A stretch of 64,000 nucleotides of DNA from positions 124,001-188,000 of the forward strand of contig CASGEL010000001.1 of NCBI GenBank assembly GCA_949300485.1. The letters run 5' to 3'. The position numbers were made by a program, and so were the translations under genes. The DNA comes from an uncultured bacterium (GTDB lineage: Bacteria > Cyanobacteriota > Vampirovibrionia > Gastranaerophilales > Gastranaerophilaceae). The notes beneath the pieces are model-generated. The model saw only the letters and a list, made by a program, of their open reading frames with translations, was not told the origin of the DNA and did no database searches. This document shows positions 12,970-32,420 of the stretch, in pieces. The first letter of the stretch is position 1. Every line of letters starts with the position of its first letter.

Positions 12970-14418
<1,449 letters not shown>

Positions 14419-14421
14419 TTT

Positions 14422-14814
14422 ATGAAATTAAAGATTATTACACAAGAAAGAGTTGTTTTTGACCAGGAAGTGGATGCAATATATTCAAAGGGTATTGACG
14501 GTGAATTCGGTATATTGAAAGGTCACATACCAATGATGAGTGCTTTAGATATCGGTGTTACTCGTGCTATTGTAAATGATGAAGTAAAAACATTTACAAC
14601 AATGGGCGGAATATTACAATTTAAAGATGAAGAATGCCTTATTTTAACAACATTGGCAGAACCCGGAGAAGAAATCGATGAAGCCAGAGCAAGAGAAGCT
14701 TTGGAAAGAGCAAGAACAAGGTTGCGTAATGCAAATGCAAGACTTGAAGCTAAAAGAGCTGAAGCTGCAATAGCAAGAGCTGAAGCTAGACTAAAAGCAA
14801 AATTGTCTCAATAA
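14422..14814 (+). CDS. atpC: ATP synthase F1 subunit epsilon
   Basis: The 130-residue epsilon subunit has an N-terminal beta-sandwich (KIITQERVVFDQEVDAIYSKG, then GILKGHIPM) and a long C-terminal helical hairpin rich in Ala, Arg and Glu (from about residue 90), which in this family binds the rotor and can inhibit ATP hydrolysis. It follows atpD after 3 bases. A hypothetical membrane protein follows after 13 bases. Confidence 0.95.
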   Translation: MKLKIITQERVVFDQEVDAIYSKGIDGEFGILKGHIPMMSALDIGVTRAIVNDEVKTFTTMGGILQFKDEECLILTTLAEPGEEIDEARAREALERARTRLRNANARLEAKRAEAAIARAEARLKAKLSQ

Positions 14815-15232: not shown

Positions 15233-15849
15233 ACATTATCCAAAATAAAAGTCAAATCCTTATAATCAATAATCACATCCGCTTGTTTTTTCAAAACCGG
15301 TCTTGCGCAAAAGGCAATTCTTTTACCTGCATATTGAAACATACTCAAATCATTAGCACCATCACCAATTGCTATTGTTTCATCTTTTGACACATCCATG
15401 ATAGCTTGTATACGTTTTAATAATTCGCCCTTACTATCATTGAATAACAAACCTCCTCCAACAGAACCGGTTAAGATACCTTCTTTTGAATGTAAAATAT
15501 TTGAAAATTCGGCATCTAAATTGGCCTTTTTAGCGAAAGGAACAGTTGCATTTTGAAAACCTCCGGAAAAACAAATTACTTTATAACCCAGTTTATGTAA
15601 CTCATTAATAGTTTCCAATGCACCGTTCATAACAGGTAAATTTTCACAAATACGATTAACCTTATCGACAGATAGGCCTTTTAAAAGAGAAACTCTACGT
15701 TGTAAACTTTCAAAAAAATCCAATTCACCTCGCATTGCACTATCTGTAATTTCTTTAATTTCTTGCTCTATGCCGATTTCTCGGGCTAAAAACTCTAAAG
15801 TTTCGCCGTCTATAAGTGTTGAATCAAAATCAAAAGCTGCTAATTTCAT
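15229..15849 (-). CDS. serB: Phosphoserine phosphatase
   Basis: The 206-residue HAD-superfamily phosphatase has the motif AFDFDSTLID with nucleophile Asp7 and acid/base Asp9, then CFSGGF (motif II region) and IGDGANDLSMFQYAG (motif IV). It hydrolyses O-phospho-L-serine to serine, the last step of the phosphorylated serine pathway. It is the third gene of the operon, 13 bases after serA. Confidence 0.92.
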   Translation of the reverse strand: MKLAAFDFDSTLIDGETLEFLAREIGIEQEIKEITDSAMRGELDFFESLQRRVSLLKGLSVDKVNRICENLPVMNGALETINELHKLGYKVICFSGGFQNATVPFAKKANLDAEFSNILHSKEGILTGSVGGGLLFNDSKGELLKRIQAIMDVSKDETIAIGDGANDLSMFQYAGKRIAFCARPVLKKQADVIIDYKDLTFILDNV

Positions 15850-15862
15850 GTTTTTCCTTTCT

Positions 15863-17461
15863 TTAGACTTGCGCGTTTAATTTTATATACTTAGGATTAT
15901 GAACCCCGTCTATTTTAGAAATTTCGGATAGTACCGAATTGTTAACCTCTGAGTCAATATTGATAACCATAATTGATTCAGTTTCGTGTTTATCATTTTT
16001 CTGAACAACGTTCATTGAACCAATATTAATATTATTTTCACCGATAACCTTTGCAACTTTAGCTATCATAGAAGGCTTGTTCACATGCGGAACAATAAGC
16101 ATATGTTTTTGCGGACGAATACTTGTTTCATAATCGTTTATTTTAACTATACGTGGAATATCTTTTGCCACAAGCGCACCTGAAACAACATTTTCACCTT
16201 TATCAGTTTTAAATTTAATTGATAATAATCCTGCAAAGTTACATTTTATATTAGACCTTGTAGAAATTATATCAATTCCTCGTTTTTTAGCAATTACCGG
16301 AGCATTAACATAATTAATTCCTTCTAATATTGAAGATAGAGCACCCTTTAATACTGCAACCTCTAACGGCTGAATATCTAATCCTGCAAGATCACCCTGT
16401 GCAGTAATTTCAATAGACTTAATTACACCGTCTGAAAGCTGCATACCCAATTCTCCTGAGTTTTCTGCAATCAACATATAATCTTTAACAGGTTCCAATT
16501 TGTCAGGACGTAAAGATGGGATATTAACTGCAGAAGAAGCAGATCCCCCGGATAATACCTCCTTTATTTGAGTTGCAACATCAGTTGCAACATTAAGCTG
16601 TGCTTCCTTTGTACTTGCTCCAAGATGAGGAGTAAGTACGAGATTTCCACTGCATGAGATTAAAGAACATTCAGAAATATTTGGTTCATTTTCATACACA
16701 TCGATTGCGGCAGATGCGACATAACCTGATTCCAATGCCTCTTTTAAATCTCTCTCATTAATAATACCGCCCCTTGCACAATTTATAAGCCGAACACCAT
16801 TTTTCATTTTTGCAATAGTCGATTTGTTAATCAAATTTACAGTTTCGTTATTTTTTGGAACATGAACAGTTATGAAATCACACTTACCCCAAAAATCATC
16901 CAAACTTTCAGCATATTCCGCACCAAATTTTTCAACAACATCCTTAGAGGCATATGGATCATAAATAACAAGCTTCATACCAAGAGATAAAGCTACTTCA
17001 GCAACATGAGTTCCAATTTTTCCAAAACCTATAATTCCTAAAGTTTTACCAAACAATTCACAACCGGTAAATTTTGACCTGTCCCACTTGCCCTCTTTTG
17101 TTGAAAGCGCAGCAGGGACAATATTTCTTGCCATTGCAAACATTAAAGCAATTGTATGCTCTGCTGCTGCTATAGTATTACCGTCAGGAGAATTCACTAC
17201 AATAATACCCTTTTGAGTAGCCGACTCGACATCGATATTATCTACACCAACCCCTGCTCTGCCTATAATCTTTAAATTTTTTCCGGCTTCTATAATTTTT
17301 GATGTAACTTTTGTTTGACTTCTTACCATCAAAGCATCATACTGCGGAATAATTTTTATTAATTCCTCTTCAGTCATAGTAGGCAAAAAATCTACTTGCG
17401 CAACAGGTTCAATAATTTTTCCTGCTGATTCGTTTATTTTATCAGTAATTAAAACTTTCAT
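15863..17461 (-). CDS. serA: D-3-phosphoglycerate dehydrogenase
   Basis: The 532-residue protein is the long form of phosphoglycerate dehydrogenase: a substrate domain, an NAD-binding loop GIIGFGKIG near 146-154, the catalytic INCARGGIINE stretch, an intervening ASB-type domain (about 320-450) and a C-terminal ACT domain (LIVPHVNKPSMIAKVAKVIG onward), which usually senses serine. It catalyses the first step of serine synthesis from 3-phosphoglycerate. It is the second gene of an aminotransferase-serA-serB operon, 11 bases after the aminotransferase. Confidence 0.95.
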   Translation of the reverse strand: MKVLITDKINESAGKIIEPVAQVDFLPTMTEEELIKIIPQYDALMVRSQTKVTSKIIEAGKNLKIIGRAGVGVDNIDVESATQKGIIVVNSPDGNTIAAAEHTIALMFAMARNIVPAALSTKEGKWDRSKFTGCELFGKTLGIIGFGKIGTHVAEVALSLGMKLVIYDPYASKDVVEKFGAEYAESLDDFWGKCDFITVHVPKNNETVNLINKSTIAKMKNGVRLINCARGGIINERDLKEALESGYVASAAIDVYENEPNISECSLISCSGNLVLTPHLGASTKEAQLNVATDVATQIKEVLSGGSASSAVNIPSLRPDKLEPVKDYMLIAENSGELGMQLSDGVIKSIEITAQGDLAGLDIQPLEVAVLKGALSSILEGINYVNAPVIAKKRGIDIISTRSNIKCNFAGLLSIKFKTDKGENVVSGALVAKDIPRIVKINDYETSIRPQKHMLIVPHVNKPSMIAKVAKVIGENNINIGSMNVVQKNDKHETESIMVINIDSEVNNSVLSEISKIDGVHNPKYIKLNAQV

Positions 17462-28245: not shown

Positions 28246-28693
28246 AACTTTTTATAGTAACCGGACTTTATTTACTTAAAATGTCAAATAATCGTTTTAG
28301 CCGTACAAGTTAGATTGTGAGGGCGGAATAGACTATAACATTGGTTTTAAAATAGAAAATTTAAGTCAATTCTTGGACAGTAATCGGACAATGATGACCA
28401 TCAAAAGACCTTTTTGTAACATATAAAACGATTACTTCCGACTGCTAAAACTTAAACACAAAGCCAACTTTGCCGAATAATCTTTTTATGCGTGCAGATA
28501 AAATGTCCCGTTAAATTACACCAAATTTAAAAATATTCTTTGTGATTGTATATCCTAATAAAGTCCGATTTAAGCAAGTTTAAAAATCCAATATCATACA
28601 CCGTCCGACGGCTGATATAAAAACGGAGAAGGTAGTTTCTGCATCAAAAGTCTATCTTGAAGTCTTAAAGCTATTTAAAATTTTTATAATATA

Positions 28694-28728
28694 AAAATTC
28701 CCTGCTAATTCAATTTTCAGGGAATTTT
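28694..28728 (-). terminator. Hairpin, likely terminator for the lipase gene
   Basis: An 11-bp stem AAAATTCCCTG (28694-28704) / CAGGGAATTTT (28718-28728), with a T-run on the minus strand just below 28694. It lies about 120 bases beyond the lipase stop. Confidence 0.5.
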
Positions 28729-28780
28729 GAATTAATTTCGCAAAATTTTCCTTTTAAACACTTCCATAACAATACTTTTG

Positions 28781-28816
28781 GACAATTCCCTGCATTATAT
28801 AAAACAGGGAATTGTC
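28781..28816. repeat. Second hairpin with the same AATTCCCTG core
   Basis: A 12-bp perfect stem GACAATTCCCTG (28781-28792) / CAGGGAATTGTC (28805-28816). No clear T-run follows on the minus strand. It shares its core with the hairpin 85 bases away and with the one at 30987-31020. Confidence 0.5.
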
Positions 28817-28845
28817 ATTTTGTATTATACCCAAATTATAATATT

Positions 28846-29763
28846 TTATTTACTTCTATAGTAACCTTTTACTTTTGTTCCATCAGAACGTGTATATGAA
28901 TTTACATAAATTAAATTTCCAGCTCTTAATTGTTGTTTTGCTTCTGCTTCTGACATAACTTTTCCAGCCGCCAATTGTTGATTTATAAAACTTTCTAAAC
29001 GACTATATTCATCTGATGTCATTTGTTTTATTTCTTCATTTGTAAATATCCTATCACTATCAATATCTCTGAAATCAATATCTAGATTAATTTGCCCTTC
29101 TAGCCTAGTAGGTTTATACTCAACAGCATTTTCTAAATCTCCCATTCCTTCTATAAAATGATATTTTAATGGATATGTACCCCCTAAATATTCACCATCT
29201 ACATTCTTAGTTATGTAATCGCTATTCTGCCCGTATCCAATTATATATGTATGTCCAAGTTGATTATTTAAGTTAAAATTAAATGTACTATCATCAACAT
29301 TTCCATAGTTTCTTATATTATCAAGATTCTCTCTCACATTCCCCTGTAATATATCCCTTACACCATAAGCATTAAAAGTTACAGTCTCACATCCTGTTTT
29401 ATTTGACATTAGTTGTGCTAAACTACCACCTAAAGAATGACCGGTAAAAACTATTCTTTTATCAGGAAAATCCTTTTTTATTTTTTCATAGAATTTTTGA
29501 GCATCAACATATTGTGCTGGAAGTTTTTTCATACCTAGATGTCCAATATCTTCTTTTATAAAATCATTTAAAATTTCATCCGTTCCTCTAATTGAGATTA
29601 CAATAGTTCCATTTTTATAAAAGGCTTCCGCATGAAAACCTGTTTTACTATTATCAAAATCTGAAAATTTAATCCAATCCTTTGGTATAAGTTTTTCATT
29701 TCCTTTGTATACCCCCATTGATAGTATCTTCATTTCATCATCAAAGTCTTTTGTATTTGTCAT
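28846..29763 (-). CDS. Class 3 lipase-like alpha/beta hydrolase with C-terminal RSDGT-x-V-x-G tail
   Basis: This 305-residue protein has a lipase class 3/DUF2974-like core: the strand GTIVISIRGTDE near 50 and the nucleophile elbow GHSLGG near 120, followed by NAYGV. Lipase residues at the C-terminal side are less clear. No signal peptide is present. The last 25 residues, AGNLIYVNSYTRSDGTKVKGYYRSK, match a short tail (SYxRSDGTxVxGYYR) often seen at the ends of mobile-element, phage or toxin-type proteins. It could be a cell-targeting effector or a decayed phage protein; neither is proven. An AAAGGA site precedes the ATG. Confidence 0.75.
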   Translation of the reverse strand: MTNTKDFDDEMKILSMGVYKGNEKLIPKDWIKFSDFDNSKTGFHAEAFYKNGTIVISIRGTDEILNDFIKEDIGHLGMKKLPAQYVDAQKFYEKIKKDFPDKRIVFTGHSLGGSLAQLMSNKTGCETVTFNAYGVRDILQGNVRENLDNIRNYGNVDDSTFNFNLNNQLGHTYIIGYGQNSDYITKNVDGEYLGGTYPLKYHFIEGMGDLENAVEYKPTRLEGQINLDIDFRDIDSDRIFTNEEIKQMTSDEYSRLESFINQQLAAGKVMSEAEAKQQLRAGNLIYVNSYTRSDGTKVKGYYRSK

Positions 29764-29800
29764 AGTTGTTTTTCCTTTCGCTTTTTTGTAATATTAAGTT

Positions 29801-30193
29801 ATGTTTTTAGATAAATTTAGGAATCGTTATAGCTTCAATTTTTTATCCGTTTGCGGTTGGATAATAATTATTTTATGTACAATTTTTACTCTTCCTGAGT
29901 TGTATATTGAATACATTGCTGGAAATACGGCACATGCTTTGGGAGTTGGAATTACTTTTTTAGGTATACTATGCTTAAATATTCTATTTTTTATATTAAC
30001 TTTTTTGGTTTATGTTTTTGAAATTGTAAGTTGGAAAAGAATAACTAATGAAAAAATTTTGAATAATAAATATTTCAAATTAATTCAAAATTTAGGCATT
30101 GTTTTTGCATTTTTGCCTATTCTTATTCTTATATTATTTTTTACTTTCAGCTTTATTAAAAGTATTGTTTATAACATTCAGAGCATTGAGTAA
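29801..30193 (+). CDS. Hypothetical small membrane protein
   Basis: This 130-residue protein has three strongly hydrophobic segments (about 15-33, 44-75 and 103-125) separated by short polar loops. There is no recognised family and only a weak ribosome site. It starts 37 bases from, and divergent to, the lipase-like gene. A small membrane protein paired with a lipase resembles effector/immunity organisation, though such pairs are usually co-directional, so this is only a possibility. Confidence 0.55.
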   Translation: MFLDKFRNRYSFNFLSVCGWIIIILCTIFTLPELYIEYIAGNTAHALGVGITFLGILCLNILFFILTFLVYVFEIVSWKRITNEKILNNKYFKLIQNLGIVFAFLPILILILFFTFSFIKSIVYNIQSIE

Positions 30194-30474
30194 CAATTAC
30201 CAAACTATGAATCAATGCTTTATAACGCTTTAATGAATTGGTCTGCATTGATATATTTGTATGGCTTAATCCTAAATTTGCTATTGCGAAAATTTAAAAA
30301 AAATACTTAATCAAAAAAATGTTCCCTAATTTCAAATTAAGCTTTAAAATTAATATGCCAAAGTTTATTATTGTTATTTATAATGTAATATTTTTTATAA
30401 AATTTGTGCCGGCTTGCTTTTTGTTTTTAATTACTTTGCCTTTTTCAATCAAAACCATAATATAATTTTCATAA

Positions 30475-30885
30475 TTATTTTCCTCCTATATTTCGGTTTG
30501 TGTTCATCTTGCTATTTATATTGTTCATATATTCTACCTCCGCATTTATAAATTTTTGCTGAAGCTTTTCAGTTTCCTCAATTGCGTAGGATGCTATTTC
30601 TATTACTGTTTTCAATCTTTTGATTTTTTCTCCCAAATGAATTTCAATAGAATCTTTACCTTGTTTTGTTATCCATTCACAAGTTACCTCTTTTAAATCT
30701 GATTCTAAAATTTCTGGTAAAAGTTCATTTGTTATAATTGCTCTTACATAATCTGGTAATGATAATCTTAATATTTTAGATTGTTTTTCTATATGCCTTT
30801 TTAAATCTTTAGGAATCCGAATACTAAATTGTTCAGTCTTACTTTTCATATTATTTTTTATAAATTTAATTATTTTTTTATACAT
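30475..30885 (-). CDS. Ribbon-helix-helix DNA-binding protein (CopG/MobC-like)
   Basis: The 136-residue protein has the ribbon-helix-helix core EQFSIRIPKDLKRHIEKQ followed by LRLSLPDYVRAIITNEL (about 18-55). It then has a charged helical tail that could dimerise. Proteins of this build act as antitoxins, plasmid copy-number repressors or mobilisation accessory (MobC-like) factors. A GGAG site fits the start at 30885. No toxin or relaxase gene is intact next to it. Its position beside recombinase remnants suggests it came with a mobile element. Confidence 0.65.
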   Translation of the reverse strand: MYKKIIKFIKNNMKSKTEQFSIRIPKDLKRHIEKQSKILRLSLPDYVRAIITNELLPEILESDLKEVTCEWITKQGKDSIEIHLGEKIKRLKTVIEIASYAIEETEKLQQKFINAEVEYMNNINSKMNTNRNIGGK

Positions 30886-30986
30886 ATTAACTCCTAATCA
30901 ATATTTATAATAAGGTATTTTCTCAATAATGTCAACATAAATTTTAAAAACATGTATTCATATAATTCTGTATTTATGTTTACAAA

Positions 30987-31020
30987 AAAATTCCCTACCA
31001 GCATTGTGGTAGGGAATTTT
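30987..31020 (-). terminator. Terminator 3' of the DUF5681 remnant
   Basis: A 14-bp stem AAAATTCCCTACCA (30987-31000) / TGGTAGGGAATTTT (31007-31020) with a 6-base loop. On the minus strand it is followed by TTTTTTTGT, so it ends transcription of the gene remnant directly upstream. Confidence 0.8.
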
Positions 31021-31030
31021 CGCAGTTATA

Positions 31031-31360
31031 CTACAAATTTTCAGGATTATTCCGGTAATAATCTTCCAAGATTTTGCGCAAAGTATCTTTGTAGAATTTC
31101 TCATCTTCTTCACTTGTCTCAGGCTCAAAATCCTCAAATGCCTTATTCTCAATCATCTGCCAGAAATCAAAGTTCAGCAAATTCAAGTTCTGCAGAAGCA
31201 TTTTCCGAGAAGGCCCGTCATTTTTAATCGCATCCTGCACTATTTTTTGTGCGAAAAGCTGTATGAAAGAAATTTTTTCACGATTTCCATTTTCATTAGT
31301 AATCGTAGCTTCCCGTATAAATGCTAGACGCAACGCTTCCATAATTGTTTTAGGCAGCAC
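31031..31360 (-). pseudogene. 5'-truncated DUF5681 gene
   Basis: The 109-residue frame reads LPKTIMEALRLAFIREATIT, ENGNREKISFIQLFAQKIV and KNDGPSRKMLLQNLNLL, the C-terminal pattern of DUF5681 proteins found in phages and mobile elements (helix, ENGxxRKITK-like turn, helix). The usual basic glycine-rich N-terminus is missing. The only start is a GTG at 31360 with no ribosome site, and an in-frame stop lies just upstream at 31370-31372. The break coincides with the start of recombinase homology on the other strand. Confidence 0.6.
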
Positions 31361-31370
31361 TTTTTTCTGT

Positions 31371-32018
31371 TATTATGTATCACAAGCTAATATCCAACAT
31401 AAAAAAGACCTTGCGGGTTCAGTAAATAAAATTCCTGGAGATGAAATTGAAAACATTGTAAAACAGGAAATAGCAGCTTTTATTTCGAATAAAACTATAA
31501 TTCAACCATATTTGAACAATTATGCATTAGAGGTCCAGAATAAAATTTTAAGTTCTCTTGAAGATTTAAAGCTCAATGATCAGATAATACGATTAATTGT
31601 ACACAAAGTGACAATATCTAAAGACAATATTGTATTAGAATTAAATACAAACATAACAATTAAGATTTTAGAAAATCTAGCTTACAATAAAGAAATACCC
31701 ATAAATATTCAAGATACTGAATTTATCATAATTAAAAAAGATATAAAAATAATTTCAACTCCAAGCCATGGCAATAAACTAATTATAGGAGATGAAGTTA
31801 AATACAATTCTACTTTAATAAAAGCGATAATAAAAGGCTTTTATTATTATAAATTATGGAAAGATGGAAAGTTATCTCCAGAACAGAAAAAGAGTTCATA
31901 TGTTTATAGATTAATGAATTTAAGATTCTTACCTCCTAATATTGTAGAAGATGTTTTAAATGGAAGACAAGCTGCAGAAATTACTGTAAAAAAGCTACAC
32001 AAGATTGCAAAACTCTAA
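31371..32018 (+). pseudogene. C-terminal remnant of a large serine recombinase
   Basis: From 31371 the frame reads YYVSQANIQHKKDLAGSVNK then IPGDEIENIVKQEI, the end of the recombinase domain with its YRYYVSxA and P-x-x-E-I-E-x-x-V pattern. At the 3' end it reads YVYRLMNLRFLPPNIVEDVL and NGRQAAEITVKKL, the C-terminal pattern of phage-type serine recombinases. The whole catalytic resolvase domain with the nucleophilic serine is missing. An open frame continues upstream to 31263, but that part is only the antisense of the DUF5681 remnant. The product cannot be an active recombinase. Confidence 0.72.
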
Positions 32019-32262
32019 TAATTTTATTTATTAATCTTTTTCTCGAAAATCTGAATAACGGGTCTTGATACTTTTGTTATAATAGATAATTTTAATACAA
32101 GCATCTATGTAATCTTAATTTGTAAAAAGTTTTTAGAAATGGAATAATTAACTAGATAAGCTTGCACTTCGAAAAATCTAGTCTGAGACTTTTTTGAATT
32201 TTCGGTATTGATTTTAACAAATTCACATAAATTAAGTCTCAAAATATGATATTAATAATTAA

Positions 32263-32285
32263 AAATGCCCGAAATTCGGGCATTT
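32263..32285 (-). terminator. Terminator downstream of tRNA-Ser
   Basis: A 9-bp G+C-containing stem AAATGCCCG / CGGGCATTT with a 5-base loop, followed by TTAATTATT on the minus strand, 46 bases after the tRNA 3' end. Confidence 0.7.
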
Positions 32286-32331
32286 CCTTAAACTTATAAC
32301 TTGCACTTTATGTGCTTTATATACTAAAAAA

Positions 32332-32420
32332 CGGAGAAGGAGGGATTTGAACCCTCGGTGCAGGTTACCCCACACAACACCTTAGCAGGGTGCCGCCTTA
32401 AGCCACTCGGCCACTTCTCC
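32332..32420 (-). tRNA. tRNA-Ser (GCT anticodon)
   Basis: The minus strand folds into a class II tRNA. The acceptor stem is GGAGAAG / CTTCTCC with discriminator G. The D-arm begins GGCCGAGTGGCTTAAGGC. The anticodon loop CTGCTAA has anticodon GCT at 32384-32386. There is a long variable arm, and the T-loop is GGTTCAAATCC. CCA is not encoded (GTT follows the discriminator), so it must be added by the nucleotidyltransferase found later in the window. Confidence 0.95.

Follow-up and report, generated by a model that had tools for sequence, protein, structure and literature searches.

What left the 3′ parts of two genes, one for a DUF5681 protein and one for a large serine recombinase, lying head to head beside a tRNA-Ser gene, each without its 5′ part? 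The window that holds them (the whole 64,000-nucleotide stretch analysed here) lies inside a 288-kb contig of a bacterial genome that is 98.9% complete and 0.14% contaminated, and whose closest named relatives are Candidatus Gastranaerophilales assemblies. A sequence-only reading had taken the fragments for the scar of a deleted mobile element, made by a single deletion that removed both divergent start regions. Having compared the locus with intact relatives, we are confident that an integrative element at tRNA-Ser, stranded by one internal non-homologous deletion, survives as a remnant at 28619-32326. A scar of this kind, a grounded and internally deleted integrative element, is already known and is ordinary genome decay; its value is as a base-level case of island stranding, in which one clean deletion would have passed through the integrase and left the att sites and cargo in place. 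Additionally, the relatives outline a recurrent defence-carrying element in the Gastranaerophilales (non-photosynthetic relatives of cyanobacteria), and the att sites are defined well enough to put to the test the use of a tRNA 3′ end by a large serine recombinase.

Features of the remnant, in window coordinates:
28619..28632, plus strand: attL-like direct repeat AAAAACGGAGAAGG, an exact 14-bp copy of the tRNA-Ser 3′ end
28633-28664: element-specific left arm containing GCATCAAAAGTCTATCTTGAAGT, following the attL-like repeat
28846..29763, minus strand: lipase-like cargo protein (Mbeg1-like/Lipase_3, above cut-off)
29801..30193, plus strand: small membrane protein, cargo; an ORF beside the lipase, with a homologue adjoining the same tRNA in G018
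30475..30885, minus strand: ribbon-helix-helix (Arc-like) cargo protein (PHROG Arc-like repressor, E 1e-4)
30987..31020, no strand: terminator-like hairpin at the DUF5681 3′ end, 34 self-complementary bp, which L152, L156 and L166 conserve along with the DUF5681 block
31031..31368, minus strand: 5′-truncated DUF5681 gene; residues 60-171 of 171 remain, with 99% identity to intact copies
31368..31369, no strand: probable deletion junction, with no microhomology
31369..32018, plus strand: 5′-truncated gene for a large serine recombinase; residues 308-524 of 524 remain, with 92% amino acid identity to intact relatives
32019..32326, no strand: non-coding right end of the element, with an inverted repeat and a terminator-like hairpin, ~83-97% identical to G075 and G294
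32327..32340, plus strand: attR-like direct repeat AAAAACGGAGAAGG; its 23-bp form, 32318-32340, is identical in the attL of G075:C12
32331..32421, minus strand: insertion site tRNA-Ser(GCU), oriented with its 3′ end towards the element
tRNA-Ser 3′ end: candidate recombination site AAAAACGGAG; the putative attP would be right arm + core + left arm

Two gene fragments meet at one exact join

The minus-strand fragment alone scores 23.8 bits against PF18932, under the 27.5-bit Pfam gathering cut-off, and we call it DUF5681 because it is 99% identical to intact members; the intact protein scores 58.4 bits. Intact 171-aa copies, matching at that level over the overlap, occur in other genera of the same family, and the intact gene sits downstream of a ParB/methyltransferase gene (ParB_N/N6_N4 methyltransferase). 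The plus-strand fragment lacks the Resolvase and Recombinase domains (residues 8-266 of the intact form) that are present in the intact homologue L096, which bears out the earlier claim that the catalytic domain was lost. Thus, the window copy is without the N-terminal catalytic and Recombinase domains that mark the large serine recombinases (PF00239 and PF07508), although its C-terminal 217 aa are 92% identical to the intact members in G075 and G294. The intact 524-aa recombinase and a DUF2924 gene adjoin the same tRNA-Ser(GCU) in these two other Gastranaerophilales genomes (L096/G075:C3 and L097/G294:C24). At locus L099, both genes are found at this tRNA with cargo in between, and at L098 the tail of a contig-truncated recombinase copy adjoins it. 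No close relatives of the recombinase tail were found in IMG/VR.

The host genome yielded neither a second DUF5681 gene nor a second copy of the window's recombinase; its other recombinase of this family shares only 51% identity with the intact form. A 30-bp match at G000:C4, considered as a second DUF5681 gene, was rejected as not DUF5681. Elsewhere in the host, an intact DUF2924-recombinase copy (L080, G000:C3:145000-164999) adjoins type I restriction and phage tail-like genes, and the same locus carries a reverse-transcriptase-like ORF of 526 aa (13073-14653) and, at 15502-16614, a 370-aa protein whose end is lectin-like; this is possibly a diversity-generating retroelement in a prophage.

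Homology to DUF5681 loci stops at exactly 31368 (blastn; L152, L153, L154 and L156), and homology to intact recombinase loci starts at exactly 31369 (blastn; two loci, L164 and L165). Aligned side by side with its relatives, the window tracks DUF5681 through ...TTTTTTCT and then the recombinase from GTTATTATG. Base by base, microhomology at the join is 0, the flanking base mismatching on each side, and the join looks like illegitimate joining without repeats. Where the sequence-only reading had both fragments losing their 5′ parts within one short interval, the relatives therefore place a single clean join between adjacent bases. From DUF5681 stop to recombinase stop, the window measures 0.99 kb, whereas the smallest linked relatives measure 3.8-5.4 kb.

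Gene order in relatives points to an internal deletion

Across 33 mapped loci, the DUF5681 and methyltransferase genes are adjacent, and the DUF2924 and recombinase genes are nearly always so. Fourteen of these loci carry both modules on one contig, and in 12 the modules stand head to head, DUF5681 and methyltransferase reading leftward and DUF2924 and recombinase rightward (G001, G063, two loci in G074, G080, G082, G106, G136, G193, G203, G294:C29 and G327), with stop-to-stop spans of 3.8-24 kb. The other two are tail to tail (G018) and in tandem (G362). The binomial probability of 12 in 14 is 3e-6 at a chance of 0.25 if the loci are independent, and is only a guide because the 12 loci are not fully so. 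Given this order and the intact modules in relatives, an internal deletion of at least ~2.9 kb explains the scar. The proposal that one deletion took both divergent 5′ ends thus agrees with intact copies of each gene, the prevailing orientation and the one clean breakpoint, and a single event is its probable source. Immediately outside the DUF5681-recombinase pairs of 11 loci, no convincing flanking direct repeats were found, which led us to recognise that cargo can sit outside both genes.

We propose that the ancestral order would have been attL, the lipase, membrane and ribbon-helix-helix cargo, leftward DUF5681 and ParB/methyltransferase genes, possibly further cargo, rightward DUF2924 and recombinase genes, attR and tRNA-Ser. 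One illegitimate deletion may then have fused DUF5681 codon ~59/60 to recombinase codon ~307/308, taking the methyltransferase and DUF2924 genes and the catalytic and DNA-binding domains of the recombinase; the length removed would be at least ~2.9 kb, and more if cargo lay in between. The truncated recombinase was probably the element's integrase. As only its residues 308-524 of 524 remain, we read the locus as a remnant rather than an active element. Without the catalytic domain, it would be unable to excise itself unless another recombinase acts in trans, and such a loss of mobility would keep it in place with its cargo. No single contig holds a complete ancestral island at tRNA-Ser, and because the G075 contigs end inside the methyltransferase gene, we infer the continuity from DUF5681 to recombinase.

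Copies of the tRNA end bound the remnant

The element remnant spans 28619-32326 and is inserted at the 3′ end of tRNA-Ser(GCU). The search for att repeats near the tRNA that the sequence-only reading had suggested, like its suggested search for intact relatives, was productive: AAAAACGGAGAAGG occurs exactly twice in the window, at 28619 and 32327, with 0 occurrences expected in shuffles, giving the flanking direct repeat with a tRNA 3′ end that is seen in tRNA-integrated elements. Among 383 genomes, GCATCAAAAGTCTATCTTGAAGT at up to 2 mismatches is found only in the host genome and twice in G075 (C19 and C12), a genome that has two copies of the window element's left end and one copy of its right end. 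In G075:C19, the left arm follows a complete tRNA-end core and is succeeded by patatin, CD-NTase, E1-E2 and JAB genes (CBASS by PADLOC) and then, at the contig end, by leftward DUF5681 and methyltransferase genes. In G075:C12, it lies on a contig that shares a dxs-like gene with the window; downstream of this gene, and directly inside attL, comes a broken copy of the lipase tail, 89% identical over the C-terminal 123 aa. A near-empty site in G006:C5 has the same 240-bp left flank followed by the tRNA with a differing stretch of less than 100 bp; in the window, ~95 bp between the conserved left flank and attL differ from G006. G018, of the same genus, retains an eroded tRNA-end copy 1.2 kb left of the tRNA. 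The att-like repeats, the shared left ends in G075 and the near-empty site in G006 together identify the element as 28619-32326, and the lipase, membrane and ribbon-helix-helix genes as its cargo.

Identity to G075 and G294, taken per 60 bases, stays at ~83-100% between 31390 and the tRNA 3′ end, after which it drops, the next chromosomal gene being 79% identical. Thus, the segment was horizontally moved and ends at the tRNA. In DNA comparisons with other genera, the recombinase tail reaches 96% and DUF5681 97%, but the adjacent chromosomal gene only 79%.

A non-coding stretch of 240 bp at 28284-28523 is 98% identical in G006 though neighbouring genes are ~80% identical, and about 11 further members of the genus have partial copies at other loci. 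It may be a dispersed repeat or an RNA.

Weighing other explanations

Several relatives keep the two modules apart: the methyltransferase-DUF5681 unit has no nearby recombinase in G011, G027 and G145, DUF5681 and the tRNA-Ser recombinase lie on different contigs in G294 and G075, and the tRNA-Ser element of G294 is without DUF5681 in the stretch read. These loci would suit two separate mobile modules, methyltransferase-DUF5681 and recombinase-DUF2924, that arrived apart and were joined by rearrangement. However, the window has the orientation expected from 12 of the 14 linked loci, G075:C19 holds leftward DUF5681 and methyltransferase genes inside an island with the same attL, and a rearrangement costs at least one extra event, all of which makes separate arrival improbable. 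An artificial join made by the assembler at 31368/31369 has a still smaller chance of being correct. The assembly is of metagenome type, and other species that may be present in the sample carry near-identical copies of both genes, but shared sequence is usually needed at such a join and none is present, the join lies within the 288-kb contig, and the missing gene halves are nowhere else in the host genome. As that genome has a single DUF5681 gene and a single copy of this recombinase, a chimera is unlikely.

The window also has an ATG-started, 251-aa plus-strand ORF (31263-32018) spanning the junction, which is a chance fusion of ~34 antisense-DUF5681 codons and the recombinase tail. That a protein of 217-251 aa has been retained here, for example as a DNA-binding tail competing with intact recombinases, would accord with a frame that is still open and with a tail dN/dS of ~0.56-0.68, below 1. 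Yet the private changes behind this ratio (8-11 non-synonymous and 3-5 synonymous) are too few to reject neutrality, the ratio exceeds those of the G075 and G294 copies (0.24 and 0.17), and the start codon comes from DUF5681 sequence read in antisense. A stand-alone version is absent from the relatives, and tails at least 68% identical all extend upstream to a full-length recombinase or a contig end. We hold such retention to be very improbable, and prefer an internal deletion within one integrative element.

Cargo and comparison with known elements

The lipase and ribbon-helix-helix genes and the tRNA-Ser that the sequence-only reading had placed near the scar are all present. The lipase resembles polymorphic effectors that share a C-terminal tail and are paired with an immunity-like protein; by its position, the membrane protein at 29801..30193 may be that partner, and the retained cargo may constitute an antagonism module. 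Four members of the genus have 70-78% homologues of the ribbon-helix-helix protein at other loci; the gene in the window has a NikA-like match that is sub-threshold only (E 0.0047), and no relaxase was seen. No phage structural or packaging genes, by which a prophage would be recognised, were found among the cargo genes in 28619-32326.

The lipase tail (IYVNSYTRSDGT.VKGYYRS) is common to otherwise different enzymes in relatives (L093:4750-5895 and L072:139-1059), and a small membrane gene follows the lipase. Defence cargo in the relatives comprises CBASS, a KAP NTPase, an Mrr-like nuclease, a cytosine methylase with Vsr, McrBC, type I restriction and SIR2/STAND. At the same tRNA-Ser, between recombinase and attR, L099:3500-9697 carries genes for a cytosine methylase, a Vsr endonuclease and two further proteins, one of 575 aa and one of 981 aa with two HATPase domains; PADLOC gives no match for the large ATPase. 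The same holds for an 893-aa protein (L098:1007-3688) that begins like HSDR_N, matches AAA weakly and is inserted between the recombinase and the element's right end.

The remnant resembles tRNA-3′-end integrative elements and genomic islands in its insertion point, its direct repeat of the tRNA end, its defence or antagonism cargo and the near-empty site in a relative, but differs in that the associated recombinase is a large serine recombinase, here truncated. With grounded (cryptic) prophages and islands (PMC6379469), it shares an inactivated recombinase, a fixed element and remaining cargo that is decaying or retained; however, no phage structural genes were seen in it, and a phage origin is not implied. 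In the Wolbachia prophage WO, too, a large serine recombinase and a DUF2924 gene lie close together, there at the beginning of the element (PMC11376236). WO has a full phage core, whereas in the Gastranaerophilales the DUF2924 gene comes before the recombinase gene and the cargo of the loci read is mainly for defence.

A possible serine recombinase target at tRNA 3′ ends

Integration with long tRNA-end repeats is usually linked to tyrosine recombinases. In 8 of 30 loci of the recombinase family, the 3′ ends of the recombinase gene and of a tRNA face each other at a distance of no more than ~1.5 kb, and this constant position suggests that the window's recombinase targeted tRNA 3′ ends. Near the island in G000, G075 or G294, we found no tyrosine integrase that could be the true integrase. 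In six other recombinase loci, no direct repeats of tRNA-Val, tRNA-Ser or tRNA-Gln 3′ ends of at least 13 bp could be assigned to insertion. In mycobacteriophages, tRNA genes are reported to go unused by serine integrases, and the tRNA sites there are taken by tyrosine-integrase phages (PMC9262239).

We tentatively suggest an undescribed Gastranaerophilales element family that combines methyltransferase-DUF5681 and DUF2924-large-serine-recombinase modules with swappable defence cargo, whose serine recombinase would integrate at tRNA 3′ ends with 14-23 bp repeats, and of which the window would hold a decayed member. In the open-access literature searched (subscription journals lay outside the search), one paper names DUF5681 and no such elements are described in the Gastranaerophilales. 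Several DUF5681/recombinase islands (L159, L076 and L078) lie within ~2-10 kb of a tmRNA gene, which is likely to be a second hotspot for them.
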